A stretch of 64,000 bases of DNA from NCBI RefSeq assembly GCF_002804065.1, contig NZ_CP024955.1:2418001-2482000 (forward strand). The letters run 5' to 3'. The translations under genes were made by a program, and so were the position numbers. Below the pieces are notes generated by a model. It had not been told where the DNA came from. It saw nothing but the letters and a program-made list of their open reading frames with translations, and did not search any database. Positions within the stretch are counted from its first letter, which is position 1. Each line of letters starts with the position of its first letter. Below are positions 43,406 to 51,001 of this stretch, in pieces. Source of the stretch: Kyrpidia spormannii. GTDB lineage: Bacteria; Bacillota; Bacilli; Kyrpidiales; Kyrpidiaceae.

Positions 43406-43906
43406 TCACTTTTCTGTCGGCAGCGGTAGCTTCAACCACTCGCGATAGAACGCTTCGATGTCCGGCTCCCAGTTATGGATCACCGGATACCAAGGCGTGG
43501 GCGCTTCCACTTCCAGAAGCGTGCCGCAGCTGGGGCAGTAAAACTCCCGGAACACCTGCCAATTCGGGTCCGGCGCCATCAGCTTTGGATAGATTTCGCT
43601 CATCGCTTCCTCCGTGTCCCGGACGTAGATGAGCGCATGAAGCTTCCAGTTCTCTCGATAGTCGCAAAATTCATGGCCACAATCGCACTTGATGACCCAC
43701 GCGCCGGTGTCTTTTTTCTCGACGACGTAAAGATGATATTGATAGGGGAGGAGGATGCGGTCCTCCCACGGCACCCGTTCCTGCAAGATCTCAAGATAGA
43801 CCTGAAAGCGTTCAGGATCTTTGGGCTCCGAAAGCATGCGATGCTGCGTCTCCCAATCGATGGTCCCGTCGATCAATTCTTCAATTTTCTTTCGATCGTA
43901 CCCCAT
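43406..43906 (-). CDS. acxC: Acetone carboxylase gamma subunit
   Basis: 166-residue small subunit of the heterohexameric acetone carboxylase, which converts acetone, bicarbonate and ATP to acetoacetate. It is Cys/Trp-rich with a zinc-ribbon-like pattern: VIKCDCGHEFCDYRENW (about 80-95) and FYCPSCGTLLEVE (about 125-137). The ending SPxxPEIEAFYREWL-type motif appears as EPDIEAFYREWLKL. ATG 43906 has GAGGAGG nine bases upstream. It lies 33 bases after acxB and before a terminator, so it closes the acx operon. Confidence 0.92.
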   Translation of the reverse strand: MGYDRKKIEELIDGTIDWETQHRMLSEPKDPERFQVYLEILQERVPWEDRILLPYQYHLYVVEKKDTGAWVIKCDCGHEFCDYRENWKLHALIYVRDTEEAMSEIYPKLMAPDPNWQVFREFYCPSCGTLLEVEAPTPWYPVIHNWEPDIEAFYREWLKLPLPTEK

Positions 43907-43939
43907 CTGCGCCGACCTCCTCACCTAATCTGTACTTCC

Positions 43940-46255
43940 TTACTCTTCGACAAGCACAAGGCGCTTCACGTCGGGAAGCTGTTCTACGCTCATGCGATGT
44001 TTTGAGCCGAAGGTGGGAGTCTCAAGCTCCTCTTCGGTCAAGTTCCAATTCTCAGGAAGATCCCAGAATCGCTTGAATTCCGCCAAAAAATTGGGGCTAA
44101 GCTGGAAGCTCGTCGCGAACATGTGACGGACCTGCACCGAAGCTTCCTTGCGCAGGATGCGCTCCCGCTCTTCCTTCATCCACTCTTGCGTCGGCTTGGC
44201 CCGTGCGATGCGCTCCTTGCGGATCTCCTCCCGGCGCTTTTGGGTCGCCTCCCGATCCACATGCCAGTGGCCCTGCTCATCTTGATAGACGACCGCTCCA
44301 TACACCTTTTCCGCATAGCGGGGGAGCAAGTAGCCGCCGTTGAGGTCCGCTTCGATCTTCGCGGGATCGCGCTCAATTGGGTCACCGAAGCCAGGACCGC
44401 CGCGCAAGTAGTTCTGGTAGAAATCGTAGTTCTCAAAGATCGTCTCTGTGGTCATGGTTTGCTTATCCCGCTTGATGGTGCGGGCCTTCATGACCTTCTC
44501 GTAATCGGGGTGATCGGGATCGGCGTCGGGCCCAAGCGGAAGCGGTAGTCCTTGCTCGATCCTTTCTTTCAGATCGGTACCGTGGGCTTCAAATCGATAA
44601 CCGGTGGCCGCGGGATAGCCGCCCATCAAACCCCAATCGCTGACCATATACCCGTTCCCCATGAAGAACATGGTCCAGTCCTTGGCATTGTAAACCATGC
44701 GGAGAGTCTCGTAGCCGCACCCGCCGCGATACTTTCCATAACCGCCGGTGTTGGCCTTTACATTGCGCCCCAAGTAGATCAGCGGCTCCGCCAACTCCCA
44801 AATCTCCATGTCGCCCATGTCGCCTTCGGGGTTCCAGATCGCCGCCGCATGATCCAGACCGTCTTTCACAGCAGTAGCCCCCGTACCTTCGGAAGCCGCC
44901 TCAAAGCTGTTGACGGCGTGAATCTCGTCGTACTGGTTGAAACCGCCGCCTTGGAGCCAGTTGGACGTATTGGCGTTTCCGGCGTTGACCTCTTCGAGAT
45001 AACCGCGCGCAAAGTAGGCCGTGCTAAGGCTCCTCCAGATGGCGCTCCACGCGGAGACCAGGAAGTGCCAGGAGTAAGAGTGGGCCGTTCGCCGGTCGTC
45101 CGGATTCTGCCACGTGCCCCGCGGCAGGCGAAATTGCGTCGCATAATAGGCGCCGTCATTGATGAGTTCCGTCGGGATCAAGGTTTGCGTCATCATGACC
45201 CAGATACCGCTGGTAAACGAAACCGGTTGAGCATTAAACGAATGCCAACCCCAACGGCTCGAACCGTCAAAATCGAGCTTCCATGTGCCGTCCGTCTTGA
45301 TCGTGATTTCATGCGGCGCATGCATGATCGTGTCGACCTTCGCATAGGGCGGGACGTTAACGTCCGGATGGTCATAACCGACGTCGACAAACGCCACCGC
45401 CCGGTACTTACCCGGCACCGTCATCGACTTAATCCTCCGGATCAGGCTGCGGTGCCCGTCCTCCACGATCTCATAGGCAAACTTCATATAGTTTTCGACT
45501 CCGACTTCACGAATGAGATCGAGCACCAGATCGCGGATCATATGGCAGCCTGCAATGCGGGTGCGCTCATCGAGCAGCCAGTAACGCGTCGTGCGGATCG
45601 ACCTCTGGCTTTCATGGAGCCAGTCGCGGAGCGGCCGGTCATTTTCTCCGGTTTTCCGGCAGGTGATCTGGTAACCGTCACCGAACCGTTGTACTGGCCC
45701 CATGGTCATCGATCCGGGTCCGAGGGCGCCCGTATCGATAACGTGCGTCACGCCACCGACCCAACCGACCAGCCGGTCTTCCCAGAAGATGGGGATGATC
45801 GTATGCACATCACACGGGTGAACATTCCCCAACATGCAGTCGTTGTTGGTAAAAATGTCGCCCGGCCGAATCCCGGGGTTTTCTTCCCATCCGTTTTCGA
45901 TCATGTATTTGATGCCCGCGCCCATGGTCCCTACGTGGATGATAATGCCCGTAGAGGTCATCAGAGAATCGCCTGCGGGGTTGTAAAGCGTAAAGCAGAG
46001 CTCACCCTCTTGCTCGACGATCGGAGAAGCGGCGATCCGCTTCGCCGTCTCGCGGGCATGCACAACGCCGGCACGAAGCCGCGAGAACATTTTGTTGTAT
46101 AAGATCGGGTCGCTCTCTTTGAGCTCGAAGTTCGTCAAACCGGCATAATGCCCCGTCTCCCGCGTGAGCCGCAACACCTCATCGCGGTGTTCTTTGAGCG
46201 TCTGTCCCTGGAGCTTCAGCGGGCTAAAATTTACGCCCAGTCGGGTTTTTGCCAT
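43940..46255 (-). CDS. acxB: Acetone carboxylase alpha subunit (hydantoinase B family)
   Basis: 771-residue catalytic subunit. The metal site known from the Xanthobacter enzyme (two His and one Asp with spacings of 3 and 22) appears here as His146, Asp149 and His171 in LGNVHPCDVH and GGVTHVID. Other recognisable stretches are GDIFTNNDCMLGN and GGYGKYRGGCGYETL. It receives the phosphorylated acetone and bicarbonate from the beta subunit. ATG 46255 has AAGGAGG nine bases upstream. Sits 31 bases after acxA, translated in the same operon. Confidence 0.93.
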   Translation of the reverse strand: MAKTRLGVNFSPLKLQGQTLKEHRDEVLRLTRETGHYAGLTNFELKESDPILYNKMFSRLRAGVVHARETAKRIAASPIVEQEGELCFTLYNPAGDSLMTSTGIIIHVGTMGAGIKYMIENGWEENPGIRPGDIFTNNDCMLGNVHPCDVHTIIPIFWEDRLVGWVGGVTHVIDTGALGPGSMTMGPVQRFGDGYQITCRKTGENDRPLRDWLHESQRSIRTTRYWLLDERTRIAGCHMIRDLVLDLIREVGVENYMKFAYEIVEDGHRSLIRRIKSMTVPGKYRAVAFVDVGYDHPDVNVPPYAKVDTIMHAPHEITIKTDGTWKLDFDGSSRWGWHSFNAQPVSFTSGIWVMMTQTLIPTELINDGAYYATQFRLPRGTWQNPDDRRTAHSYSWHFLVSAWSAIWRSLSTAYFARGYLEEVNAGNANTSNWLQGGGFNQYDEIHAVNSFEAASEGTGATAVKDGLDHAAAIWNPEGDMGDMEIWELAEPLIYLGRNVKANTGGYGKYRGGCGYETLRMVYNAKDWTMFFMGNGYMVSDWGLMGGYPAATGYRFEAHGTDLKERIEQGLPLPLGPDADPDHPDYEKVMKARTIKRDKQTMTTETIFENYDFYQNYLRGGPGFGDPIERDPAKIEADLNGGYLLPRYAEKVYGAVVYQDEQGHWHVDREATQKRREEIRKERIARAKPTQEWMKEERERILRKEASVQVRHMFATSFQLSPNFLAEFKRFWDLPENWNLTEEELETPTFGSKHRMSVEQLPDVKRLVLVEE

Positions 46256-46286
46256 TCGGACCATCCTCCTTCATGATCGTGATTTC

Positions 46287-48422
46287 TTAGCGGTGCTTGA
46301 GATGGAACAGACGGTGTGCATCCAACGTCGTGCTCCAACCCGGTGGAACGACAAGCGTCGTCGCCGGGGCCTCGATAATCGCGGGACCCTCAATTTGATT
46401 GCCCGCCCGCAGGGTGTCCATATCCCAGATGTCGGCGTTAACCCACTTTCCGCGAAAGTAGAAAGGTCTCTGTCCGCGAAGCGCTTCTTTAGGCGGTGTT
46501 GCACCGTTGAGCGGTTCTTCCGGAATACGCGGCTTGACGCTGGGCACAATGCCGCGCATGATTGCACCCGTAATGGTAAAGCCCAATTCGGGACTGCGGG
46601 CGGCTTTTGCGTAAACGCGGGCATACGTCTCTTCAAAAGCCTCCGTCAACTGATCCCAGTCCCCGGCCTTTTCGACACGGTTGAGCGGAGAATTGATCTC
46701 GAGATCGTTGAGCTGACCGCGGTACATCATGCGGTAACCCGGAAACAGCATGACGCTTTCCGGCGAATAGCCGTTGAGGCGGAACTCTTCGATCACCTTT
46801 TCGGCCAGTTCGCTCCAGGCGCTCTGAAGCACTTGTACGGCTTCGAGCTTTTCGGCCGCCCCGGCGTCCGGCGCCACGTTGATGTCGAGGCTCTTGTCAT
46901 AGCGGTACTCAAATTCCGCCGCGGCACAACCGAATGCGGAAAAACCGGCCGCCCAAGCGGGAACTATGATGTCCTCGAAGTCGAGCCCTTCGGTATAACC
47001 GTACGTGTGCACCGGGCCGGCGCCGCCGTAAGAGAAGCAGACGAATTCGGAGGGATGATAACCTTTCCCGCTGATCATCGCCCGCAAATGATCGCGGAGG
47101 CGCGTATCGAGCAGCTCAATCACACCCGCGGCAGCTTCCTCCACCGTGAGCCCCAACGGACGGGCGACTTGCTCCTCAATTGCTTTTCGGGCCCGTTCGG
47201 GATCCAGCTTAACTTGCCCACCGAGGAAATTATCCGGATTGATGTATCCGAGCACGACGTGACAGTCGGATATGGTGACGGTTTCTACTCCGCTTTCCGG
47301 CCAGCAGACGCCGACGCGATATCCCACGCTATCCGGGCCAATCCGAATCGCATGCGTATACGGATCGATGCGCACGTAGCTGCCGGCACCAGACCCCACG
47401 CTGTCCATTTGCACGAGCGGCAAAGATAAAACCAGCCGGGCCATATCCGGATCGTGTTGGATGGTGAACTGACCTTGAACGATTAGCGCCATGTCAAAAC
47501 TCGTACCGCCGATATCGGTGGCAGCGATATTGCGGTAGCCCAGACGTTCGCCGAGCGAGCGCGCTCCGATCACACCGCCGATCGGTCCGGATACGACTGT
47601 CCGAGCCAGCTCTTTTGCCTTCCAGCCGATTGTCCCGCCGTGGCTGGCCATCACCCGCAAGTCAAACCGGGCACCGAGTTCTTTAAACCGCTCGTTAATT
47701 CGGACCAACGTCTTACGCGACGGTTCTGCGGCATACGCTTCGAGGATAGTGGTATTGGTGCGGTGTGACTCTTTGCGCACGGGATAATAGTCTGAAGAGG
47801 CAAAGACCGGAATATTCTTCCCGGCTTCACGCACCACCTCGAGAACGATGTCTCGCACCCGCCGTTCATGAACGGGGTTCTTGTAAGAATGAAGGAAACT
47901 GATGACAATGCCTTCCACGTTTAGATCCACAAGCTTTCGCGCCGCCTCATACGCTTCATTTTCCCGCAGCGGGATGACGATGTTGCCGAACATGTCGATC
48001 CGTTCGGTGATACCAAAGGTCAGCTCCCTCGGGACCAAGGGCGGATCATAGCGATGGGTATTAAGGTGCAAGCGATCTTCGTAAGAATAGCCCAGGTACG
48101 ATTGAATCGACCGCCCCATGCGATGGAAATCTTCCATCCCGCGATTGACGATCAATCCGACGCGTAAGCCTTTCCGCTGTACGATGCGGTTGAGCATGGC
48201 CGTCCCGGAATACACGGCCGTCACCAACTGCGGAAAGACTTCTTCGACAGTGAGATTCCACTGCGCAAGCGCGTCGGTCGATGAGTTGATCAAGCCGACC
48301 GACTCGTCATACGGTGTGCTTTGCGCCTTGCCGACAACGAAGTTTCCTTCAGCATCCACGAAAAAGGTATCCGTCATCGTTCCGCCGGCATCGATACCCA
48401 GCACCTGAATATGGCTCGCCAT
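46287..48422 (-). CDS. acxA: Acetone carboxylase beta subunit (hydantoinase A family)
   Basis: 711-residue ATP-binding subunit with two actin/ASKHA-like phosphate loops: VLGIDAGGTMTDTFFVD at the N-terminus and AATDIGGTSFDMALI near residue 300. It phosphorylates acetone and bicarbonate with ATP (ATP to AMP plus two phosphates in studied enzymes). The length matches the family (about 715). ATG 48422 has AGGGAGG seven bases upstream. First gene of the acxABC operon, driven by a sigma-54 promoter about 45 bases upstream, with an AcoR-type activator gene divergent to it. Confidence 0.94.
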   Translation of the reverse strand: MASHIQVLGIDAGGTMTDTFFVDAEGNFVVGKAQSTPYDESVGLINSSTDALAQWNLTVEEVFPQLVTAVYSGTAMLNRIVQRKGLRVGLIVNRGMEDFHRMGRSIQSYLGYSYEDRLHLNTHRYDPPLVPRELTFGITERIDMFGNIVIPLRENEAYEAARKLVDLNVEGIVISFLHSYKNPVHERRVRDIVLEVVREAGKNIPVFASSDYYPVRKESHRTNTTILEAYAAEPSRKTLVRINERFKELGARFDLRVMASHGGTIGWKAKELARTVVSGPIGGVIGARSLGERLGYRNIAATDIGGTSFDMALIVQGQFTIQHDPDMARLVLSLPLVQMDSVGSGAGSYVRIDPYTHAIRIGPDSVGYRVGVCWPESGVETVTISDCHVVLGYINPDNFLGGQVKLDPERARKAIEEQVARPLGLTVEEAAAGVIELLDTRLRDHLRAMISGKGYHPSEFVCFSYGGAGPVHTYGYTEGLDFEDIIVPAWAAGFSAFGCAAAEFEYRYDKSLDINVAPDAGAAEKLEAVQVLQSAWSELAEKVIEEFRLNGYSPESVMLFPGYRMMYRGQLNDLEINSPLNRVEKAGDWDQLTEAFEETYARVYAKAARSPELGFTITGAIMRGIVPSVKPRIPEEPLNGATPPKEALRGQRPFYFRGKWVNADIWDMDTLRAGNQIEGPAIIEAPATTLVVPPGWSTTLDAHRLFHLKHR

Positions 48423-48463
48423 CTGTGAACCTCCCTTGTATCTTGTTGTCCCCCTCCCTATCT

Positions 48464-48479
48464 CGCAAAGATTGTGCCA
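48464..48479 (-). promoter_or_regulatory. Sigma-54 (-24/-12) promoter of acxABC
   Basis: On the minus strand TGGCAC-AATCT-TTGCG matches the -24/-12 consensus (TGGCAC N5 TTGC) with correct spacing. The start site would be near 48454, some 30 bases before acxA. The divergent activator with GAFTGA supports it. Confidence 0.88.
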
Positions 48480-48560
48480 TCTCTGAGATCCAGGAAATAA
48501 CCCGAAATCTTGGTCTATGAAGCAGAAAAGTTGTAGCCCCCTGTTGCGCCTCCACCAGGA

Positions 48561-48608
48561 TGTATACAGGTGTAGCGGTGCAAGTGTAGCGATGTAAATG
48601 TAGTGCCC
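48561..48608. repeat. TGTAGCG direct repeats, candidate activator sites
   Basis: TGTA-headed units start at 48561, 48571, 48585 and 48599. The second and third are TGTAGCGGTGCAAG and TGTAGCGATGTAAA, 14 bp each, and the fourth begins TGTAGTG. They lie about 107-154 bp upstream of the sigma-54 start site, a usual place for enhancer-binding activators. Confidence 0.6.
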
Positions 48609-48705
48609 TAGTAGGTGTTGGCGACGGTACAGTAGTACCTTGATTTCTTTGCTGCCGCCAGCAAGACGAGGGCTGCGAGCACTCGTCAATGATAATAGAC
48701 TATAT

Positions 48706-48765
48706 TCAAATGCCTCTAGTACAGATGGTGATAATCACAATGGCCAGGATGCCGAGCGGAACCAT
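48706..48765 (-). other. Small hydrophobic ORF, copy 2 (possibly broken)
   Basis: MVPLGILAIVIITICTRGI (19 residues) resembles the core of the small ORF at 38839-38940. There is no ribosome site at its ATG. An ATG 26 bases further upstream, preceded by GCGGGA, would read into the same frame only if one T of the T8 run (48773-48780) were skipped. It may be decayed, or expressed by slippage. Confidence 0.3.
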
Positions 48766-48814
48766 TCGGCGTAAAAAAAAGAGTTACCCCCATTCCCGCT
48801 TAGCCGAAATTTAG

Positions 48815-48820
48815 TATAAT
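48815..48820 (+). promoter_or_regulatory. Possible -10 element of the acoR-like gene
   Basis: TATAAT lies 55 bases upstream of the start codon of the activator gene. No convincing -35 is present at 16-18 bp, so this is weak. Confidence 0.3.
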
Positions 48821-48874
48821 AGTGCAAAACCCTAGACAGCTCTGACGTGACTCCAAAAAAGTGGGGTGTAACCG

Positions 48875-51001
48875 TTGTATCACGCACATCGCACGGTGTT
48901 GTCCCCCGAGGAACTCAGAAAGCAGCGCCGACGATTGGAGGAAAGTTGGGACCACTTTTTACGCGATCCCCGGGCAGCCGGAAGCTCTTCCATTCGTTCC
49001 GTCGTTTTGGAGTCCTGGAGCCGATGTGTGCAGTCCGGGGTTGATCCGCGCCGCAAAGCGACGGATATTTCCCTGAAAGAAGACCAAATCAAAGATATTC
49101 TTCAATATTCTCAGTTATATGAACTGTCTTTCCCGGTTTTGCAGGATTTATCTTTGCAGGTGAAGGAGACGGGCTATCTGGTCACCCTCTGCGATCCAAA
49201 GGGGCACATCCTGTTCCTGGACGGGGACCACCAAGTACTCAAGAAAGCGGAACGGATGAACTTCGTGGTGGGAGCCGACTGGAGCGAGCAATCCATCGGG
49301 ACCAACGCCATCGGCACCTGTTTGGAAGTGGGCCAGCCGGTTCAGATTTTCGCTGCCGAACACTTTTGTGTGGGGGTGCAGGATTGGACCTGTTCTTCGG
49401 CGCCGATTCGGGATCCCATCTCCCGAGAGATCATCGGGGTGGTGGATGTCACCGGTTTGTGGCGGGACATTCAGCCCCACACCTTGAGCATGGTCACTAT
49501 GGCTTGCGGGACCATTCAATCTCGGATGAACCAACAGATTGCAGGAGCACGGTTCGAACTTTCTGAACGGTATCAACGGGCGCACCGGCGATACCCGGGA
49601 AACGGCGTGATGGCTCTGGACGCCGCCTTCCATCCAGTGGCCGTCAATGAAGAGGCCAGGCAGATTTTGCGGCGGCATTCCGGTCGGGAAGTGGAGCAGT
49701 GGTGGGACAATGAACGAATCCACGCCGCACTGTTCGCAGCTCGCAGCCCCTCCGGAGACGAGGGGATGTACGAGGTTACCTTAGAGGAATGTGGGATTCG
49801 CGTGGTCGTTGAGGAGGTCCAGTGGTCCGGCCGGCGGGTTGGCTACCTCCTGATCCTTCGGCCCATGGGTTCCCAAAAAGCGGCGGGCCCAACGGTGGCC
49901 TGGGGAGGTGTGATCGGGCGAAGTCCGGAGATTCTCTCGGTCATCTCCCGCTGCGACGTGGTGGCCCACACCGACGTGCCGGTCTTGCTGCTCGGGGAAA
50001 GCGGAACCGGAAAGGAATTGTTTGCCCGGGGGATCCACCAAGCCGGCCCCCGCCGGAACGGCCCTTTCATTGCCGTTAACTGCGGGGCTCTGCAAAAGGA
50101 TCTTTTGGCCAGTGAACTGTTCGGTTACGCCCCCGGGGCCTTTACCGGCGCCTCGAAAACGGGGAAGCCCGGGAAGTTCGAAGAGGCCCAAAACGGCACG
50201 TTGTTTTTGGATGAGATCGGCGAAATGCCACCTGAATTTCAGGTTCATCTTCTTCGGGTGCTCCAAGAGCGTGAAGTGGTTCGGCTGGGATCCTCTCAAC
50301 CGATTCCCGTCAACGCCCGGATCATCGCCGCAACCCACCGAAATCTGGAGGAGATGATAAGAAGAGGGGAATTCCGGGAAGATTTGTATTTCCGTCTCCA
50401 CGTGGTCAGCTTGACGATTCCACCGCTTCGCGACCGCCGCGGGGACATTCCCTTGCTCATCGACCACATCTTGGATCAGTTATCCAAACGCTACCACATT
50501 CCCAGACCGGGATTGGAGCCTGATGTGTTCGACTTCTTCGCCCATCGCTACCCTTGGCCAGGAAACGTGCGGGAACTCAAGCACGCCTTGGAGTATGCCG
50601 TCCTTTTCTGCAACCGGGTCATCACCTGGCGGGATTTGCCCGAAACCCTGCGCAAAGCCGGGCTCGGCGATTCGGATCGACCCCTCGCACCAAAGAATGC
50701 CGATCCGCCGGTCACATCCGGCGATCACCGTCTCGCTGTGGGGAGATCCACCCTGGCTTCACCAAGGCAGTCCTTGCCCGGACCGGTCAAATCCACGCCG
50801 GTCTCAAGATTGGAACCGGACCCCGACGTCGCCAATGCCGAGCCCGGGGGCACCGGAGCCGACCGTGAGCAACTGTTGCAGCTACTGGAGGAAGTGGGGG
50901 GCAACCTTTCCGAGGCCGCCAGAAGGCTACGCATCGCCCGCACCACCCTGTACCGCCGACTTGACCGATACGGTATCCGCAAACGCCTCAAGATCGAATA
51001 G
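48875..51001 (+). CDS. acxR: Sigma-54-dependent activator, AcoR/AcxR type
   Basis: 708-residue enhancer-binding protein. In order: an N-terminal GAF-like sensor region (about 60-230: VLESWSRCVQSGVDP at the start), a PAS-like middle, the AAA+ domain (about 345-575) with Walker A GESGTGKE (374-381), the sigma-54 loop GAFTGA (421-426), and a C-terminal Fis-type HTH (about 665-700: LSEAARRLRIARTTLYRRL). Such proteins drive acetone or acetoin operons; the divergent acxABC with a -24/-12 promoter is the obvious target. TTG 48875 has GGGGTG six bases upstream. A Pro/Ser-rich linker precedes the HTH. The symbol is by analogy. Confidence 0.9.
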   Translation: MYHAHRTVLSPEELRKQRRRLEESWDHFLRDPRAAGSSSIRSVVLESWSRCVQSGVDPRRKATDISLKEDQIKDILQYSQLYELSFPVLQDLSLQVKETGYLVTLCDPKGHILFLDGDHQVLKKAERMNFVVGADWSEQSIGTNAIGTCLEVGQPVQIFAAEHFCVGVQDWTCSSAPIRDPISREIIGVVDVTGLWRDIQPHTLSMVTMACGTIQSRMNQQIAGARFELSERYQRAHRRYPGNGVMALDAAFHPVAVNEEARQILRRHSGREVEQWWDNERIHAALFAARSPSGDEGMYEVTLEECGIRVVVEEVQWSGRRVGYLLILRPMGSQKAAGPTVAWGGVIGRSPEILSVISRCDVVAHTDVPVLLLGESGTGKELFARGIHQAGPRRNGPFIAVNCGALQKDLLASELFGYAPGAFTGASKTGKPGKFEEAQNGTLFLDEIGEMPPEFQVHLLRVLQEREVVRLGSSQPIPVNARIIAATHRNLEEMIRRGEFREDLYFRLHVVSLTIPPLRDRRGDIPLLIDHILDQLSKRYHIPRPGLEPDVFDFFAHRYPWPGNVRELKHALEYAVLFCNRVITWRDLPETLRKAGLGDSDRPLAPKNADPPVTSGDHRLAVGRSTLASPRQSLPGPVKSTPVSRLEPDPDVANAEPGGTGADREQLLQLLEEVGGNLSEAARRLRIARTTLYRRLDRYGIRKRLKIE

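Follow-up and report, generated by a model that had tools for sequence, protein, structure and literature searches.

The acx operon and its divergent regulator

The window, a 64-kb stretch of the Kyrpidia spormannii genome, carries an acxABC cluster on the minus strand and, pointing away from it, the gene for an AcxR-type bacterial enhancer-binding protein (bEBP) (Table 1). The host is a heat-loving, hydrogen-using Gram-positive, and its assignment to the Firmicutes in the original prediction holds, with K. tusciae (G398) as a genome of the same genus. AcxA and AcxB score far better against the acetone carboxylase chains of solved structures (5m45, 5svb) than against the acetophenone enzyme, and all three subunit genes are present, including a PF08882-type gamma subunit. 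Judged from these matches, the acxABC operon encodes a genuine acetone carboxylase. The acyl-CoA synthetase gene starts only 6 nt past acxC and so probably closes the operon, its product probably serving in acetoacetate activation.

The expected activator divergent to acxA is encoded by an open reading frame with Sigma54_activat, AAA lid and HTH_8 domains, and thus combines an AAA+ module bearing an intact GAFTGA loop with a Fis-type helix-turn-helix. A Pfam search up to E 10 assigns no family to its N-terminal residues 1-342, whereas a Xanthobacter regulator (L204) does match GAF.

Table 1 Features of the acx locus, in window coordinates.
Feature	Position	Strand	Basis or remark
AMP-forming acyl-CoA synthetase, 692 aa	41321..43399	minus	best NCBIfam acetate--CoA ligase models, below cut-offs
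acxC, acetone carboxylase gamma subunit, 172 aa	43406..43924	minus	PF08882, E 2.4e-53
acxB, acetone carboxylase alpha subunit, 774 aa	43940..46264	minus	chain 5m45_A, 1290 bits
acxA, acetone carboxylase beta subunit, 711 aa	46287..48422	minus	chain 5m45_B, 1185 bits
Promoter segment	48430..48591		about 91% identity to G400 (same family, other genus); unalignable to K. tusciae
-24/-12 sigma-54 promoter element, TGGCAC-AATCT-TTGC	48465..48479	minus	sequence match
Candidate upstream activator sequence (UAS), TGTWGCG-type repeats	48532..48605	plus	sequence motif
AcxR-type bEBP, 708 aa, GAFTGA, Fis-type HTH	48875..51001	plus	divergent from acxA

A -24/-12 element precedes acxA

The TGGCAC-N5-TTGC motif that had been placed directly upstream of acxA is present as an exact copy, TGGCACAATCTTTGC, running from 48479 to 48465 on the minus strand and ending 42 nt before the acxA ATG (48422), which is itself preceded by AGGGAGG. 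The element has GG at -24 and GC at -12 at the fixed spacing. The base beyond it (48464), the final consensus position, is G, where the sigma-54 consensus has A or T, and its score of about 14.9, on a matrix set by hand from the consensus, lies below those of most relatives. It is the sole zero-mismatch copy in the window. Dinucleotide shuffles of the 452-nt intergenic region contained an exact copy in 25 of 20,000 cases, and a matrix score of at least 14.8 was reached in 3 of 2000 shuffles of that region; the exact motif before acxA is far above chance expectation and so unlikely by chance. From the usual spacing, transcription of acxA is predicted to start near 48453. A consensus scan, which is weak evidence for such promoters, found no sigma-70-type site in 48400-48900. 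Relaxed forms of the motif were left unused, as only the exact form is informative: with up to two mismatches it occurs 66 times in the window against 62.8 expected, and with one mismatch it is at or near chance in the whole genome.

The host genome has a probable sigma-54 network

The search for rpoN that the original prediction had named as a check found the gene, a 453-aa open frame matching PF04552 at E 2.3e-66, so the first of that prediction's refuting conditions does not apply. Sigma-54 activator domains give 21 full and 3 weak matches in the genome. The genome contains the pattern TGGCAYN5TTGC 42 times and its reversed form 7 times. With five copies of a single repeated sequence set aside, 37 exact sites remain, of which 19 are no more than 3 kb from a full bEBP gene; random placement gave a mean of 1.4 and at most 7 in 5000 draws. 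Conversely, 13 of the 21 full bEBPs have an exact site within 3 kb and 8 have none. The motif excess and its clustering near activator genes therefore outline a working-looking sigma-54 network in a Gram-positive. The five repeated copies, TGGCACGTAGTTTGC at G000:C1 9681, 105908, 376301, 1877326 and 2307133, probably lie within a repeated element and were not counted as promoters.

PF08882 matches fall at five places in the genome, the window locus included; the four others are gamma genes of acetone- or acetophenone-carboxylase type (G000:C1 2076103, 2088054, 3273677 and 1188746; L071-L076). Two adjoining acx clusters at 2.08-2.09 Mb and an acetophenone-type cluster at 3.27 Mb each adjoin a bEBP gene and have sites just upstream that score 18.6, 18.6 and 15.6, and the 1.19 Mb cluster has neither a bEBP nor a site within its 20 kb. 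The second 2.08-2.09 Mb cluster is broken by an ORF pair (491 and 252 aa), which we take to be of insertion-sequence type and which recurs upstream of the 1.19 Mb cluster.

The element and the loop-bearing regulator are conserved at Bacillota acx loci

Of 41 genomes, 13 have AcxA matches at E 1e-40, counting paralogs, and from at least 447 confirmed loci 80 named ones were retained. A site scoring 13 or more is found in 44 of these 80, against none in each of two controls. Fifteen Bacillota loci are of the close acxABC type: G000, G398, G400, G419, G428, G401, G410, one of G422, ZC4RG03, three Alicyclobacillus, Thermoflavimicrobium and two Brevibacillus, with acxB and acxC checked in some of them and just the start of acxA on the G400 contig. 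All fifteen have a sigma-54 site upstream of acxA (scores 13.1-19.0), and a loop-bearing regulator adjoins acx in 14, Thermoflavimicrobium having no regulator within the locus DNA examined. The regulator is divergent in five of these 14 loci and convergent in nine. In Bacillota AcxR orthologs L133-L136, L138, L165, L228, L229, L232 and L236, GTFTGG or GTFTGA replaces GAFTGA and strong sigma-54 sites are kept. Brevibacterium has neither site nor regulator at its acx locus, and its phylum is not known to carry rpoN.

Across the named loci, 67 of 80 have a regulator in the DNA examined, the other 13 being set aside. At a score of 11 or more, a cut-off chosen after the scores were seen, 46 of 48 loci with a loop-bearing regulator have a site, against none of 19 with a loopless one. 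The two exceptions are Noviherbaspirillum denitrificans (10.8) and Elizabethkingia (4.4), whose loop-bearing regulator has no site within its 10 kb. The loopless AcxR-like set comes from Rhodobacterales, Paracoccus, Acidocella and others, with the regulators near acx, and the four of the 19 that were scanned retain the AAA+ core, lid and HTH. The correlation is strong, but loop loss and site loss map to one event on the AcxA tree, so it amounts to few independent tests; an independent-pairs test had one pair, too few for significance. The loopless lineage apparently made a single switch away from sigma-54. Loci that have lost the loop and have no -24/-12 element are L176, L179, L180, L182, L187, L191, L195, L196, L198-L200, L202, L207, L211, L214, L215, L217, L218 and L226.

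TGTWGCG repeats form a candidate activator site

Upstream of the element, the window has one TGTTGCG (48542-48548) and two TGTAGCG (48571-48577, 48585-48591), placing the exact TGTWGCG copies 63-112 nt above -24, with weaker copies at 48532-48537 and 48599-48605. The motif was drawn after viewing the window, K. tusciae, G400 and G419, which hold 3, 3, 5 and 3 copies, respectively, in the 250 nt above -24 (complement included). Ten further Bacillota loci hold 26 copies against 0.76 in shuffles (largest 3 in 300 shuffles), and four paralogous-type loci hold none. Overall, TGTWGCG is present in 12 of the 15 Bacillota acxABC loci, with a single copy in Thermoflavimicrobium and none within 250 nt above -24 in G401, ZC4RG03 and A. 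macrosporangiidus. The window, K. tusciae and G400 regulators have almost the same recognition helix. These repeats are likely the binding site of the activator. Elsewhere in the genome a tandem TGTWGCG-type pattern occurs once, at 1821573.

The locus appears to be a mosaic

Over the 3.9 kb from 48773 rightward, the window matches K. tusciae at 88% identity, and the regulator proteins are 91% identical. To the left, the relationships differ: the window and K. tusciae AcxA share only 66% identity, while identity to G419, which belongs to another family, reaches 88% across acxABC (about 43436-48439). G400 matches window 48210-48591 at 93% identity but has a regulator that shares only 68%, and its aligned copy of the -24/-12 element reads TGGCACAATCTTTGCA. 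Against plasmids, the promoter segment gave 31-nt matches at chance level only. On the tree, window AcxA groups with Proteobacteria (support 100; quick trees, simple model), and forcing 14 Bacillota AcxA together is rejected (p-AU 0.024, for a group named after the tree was seen). By these comparisons the regulator appears native to the genus, and acxABC with its promoter (43436-48591) appears to have been exchanged between lineages. Both promoter versions, that of the window and that of K. tusciae, carry a site and TGTWGCG repeats despite the lack of alignment between them.

Shared or parallel wiring

The original prediction read the locus as parallel wiring in a Gram-positive. The sigma-54 control in that reading has good support from the conservation of the element, the UAS motif and the co-occurring loop-bearing activator, but "parallel" fares less well. 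Bacillota AcxR form a clade of their own (support 100; quick trees, simple model), yet a tree uniting 14 Bacillota with 32 Proteobacterial regulators in a joint clade is not rejected and has a slightly higher likelihood than the free tree (p-AU 0.636; loopless regulators excluded, 15 rows named for thinning, and usable ORFs taken from 20 of 30 added bEBP loci, one a duplicate). Common descent or ancient transfer therefore fits equally well. A truly parallel origin, in which Bacillota recruited a different bEBP for acx independently of Proteobacteria, would suit the separate regulator clades, the mixed regulator orientation in Bacillota and a TGTWGCG motif seen at Bacillota loci; set against the likelihood of the joint clade, we consider it rather unlikely.

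A model for sigma-54 control of the operon

Very probably, acxABC and the acyl-CoA synthetase gene form an acetone-catabolic operon under sigma-54 and an AcxR-type activator, a wiring that would have been kept through replacement of the genes it governs. The DNA itself shows the element and rpoN, the operon, the conserved repeats, and an activator with its domains and loop. In the model, the N-terminal region of the activator would sense acetone or a related compound as inducing ligand, and the activator, made from the divergent gene, would bind the TGTWGCG repeats. Once activated, it would contact sigma-54 through its GAFTGA loop and open the promoter by ATP hydrolysis, so that sigma-54 RNA polymerase would transcribe the operon from the -24/-12 element. 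Recombination beside the resident regulator would have put the present acx genes and promoter in place of the version that the genus had before. On the other side, the word acetone does not occur in the main texts of two Kyrpidia papers (PMC3236038, PMC7248562).

The wiring may be right and the natural signal or substrate another ketone, such as butanone or one derived from an alcohol. The regulator's sensor region belongs to no Pfam family, several acx-like clusters share the genome, and propanol and butanol support growth of K. spormannii FAVT5, the isomer not being given in the available part of the report (PMC7248562). Against this, AcxA and AcxB are matched best by acetone carboxylase chains and AcxC by the acetone carboxylase gamma family, and we regard another ketone as a possible but doubtful inducer. 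It is very improbable that a sigma-A promoter does most of the transcription of the operon and that the -24/-12 element is a relic or serves as a minor promoter. Consensus scans can miss housekeeping promoters, which are degenerate, and Rhodobacterales acx loci with loopless regulators do without the element, but the scan of 48400-48900 found no site, the element (15/15) and the UAS (12/15) are kept in Bacillota, and the neighbouring activator's loop is intact.

Returning to sigma-54 control by AcxR, we lean towards a broader reading of the mosaic. In it, acxABC and a promoter from another lineage came to lie beside a resident regulator; as the old and the new promoter both have the -24/-12 element and TGTWGCG, sigma-54 wiring may be a selected, portable property across phyla, given up together with the loop in one alphaproteobacterial lineage. 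The apparent natural swap of enzyme and promoter and the natural loss of the loop offer ways to study the retention and loss of an enhancer-dependent switch. The locus would add Bacillota to the groups with ketone carboxylation under sigma-54 and offers a testable activator site.

Comparison with known systems

As the original prediction stated, sigma-54 control of ketone carboxylation has precedents in Proteobacteria, namely Cupriavidus and Xanthobacter, in the available parts of PMC2864759 and PMC2244623. The latter describes sigma-54/AcxR control of Xanthobacter acx, from which H. pylori differs. According to the portion of PMC2864759 at hand, Cupriavidus AcxR carries GAFTGA, its site is TGGCATGNNNNTTGC and its gene is divergent as in Xanthobacter, and at the Azorhizobium locus the regulator runs in the same direction. 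Among Gram-positives, AcoR of B. subtilis and Clostridium provides sigma-54 control of acetoin catabolism (PMC6615313, in part); the main text of this Clostridiales study never uses the word acetone. In the open-access literature we found no report of a sigma-54-controlled acetone carboxylase in Bacillota, the related matches being to Helicobacter.

The Kyrpidia locus resembles AcoR-type Bacillota activators in its sigma-54 control but differs in its target, an acetone carboxylase operon rather than acetoin catabolism. With acxRABC of Xanthobacter autotrophicus Py2 and Cupriavidus metallidurans, as given in the available part of PMC2864759, it shares the enzyme subunits, a Fis/AAA+ GAFTGA regulator, a -24/-12 element before acxA and the divergent order. 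It differs in its phylum, in an AcxR clade of its own, in the Bacillota TGTWGCG motif and in the acyl-CoA synthetase gene that stands in line with acxABC. That the Kyrpidia locus is a new Gram-positive member of the wiring known from Xanthobacter and Cupriavidus is well supported.
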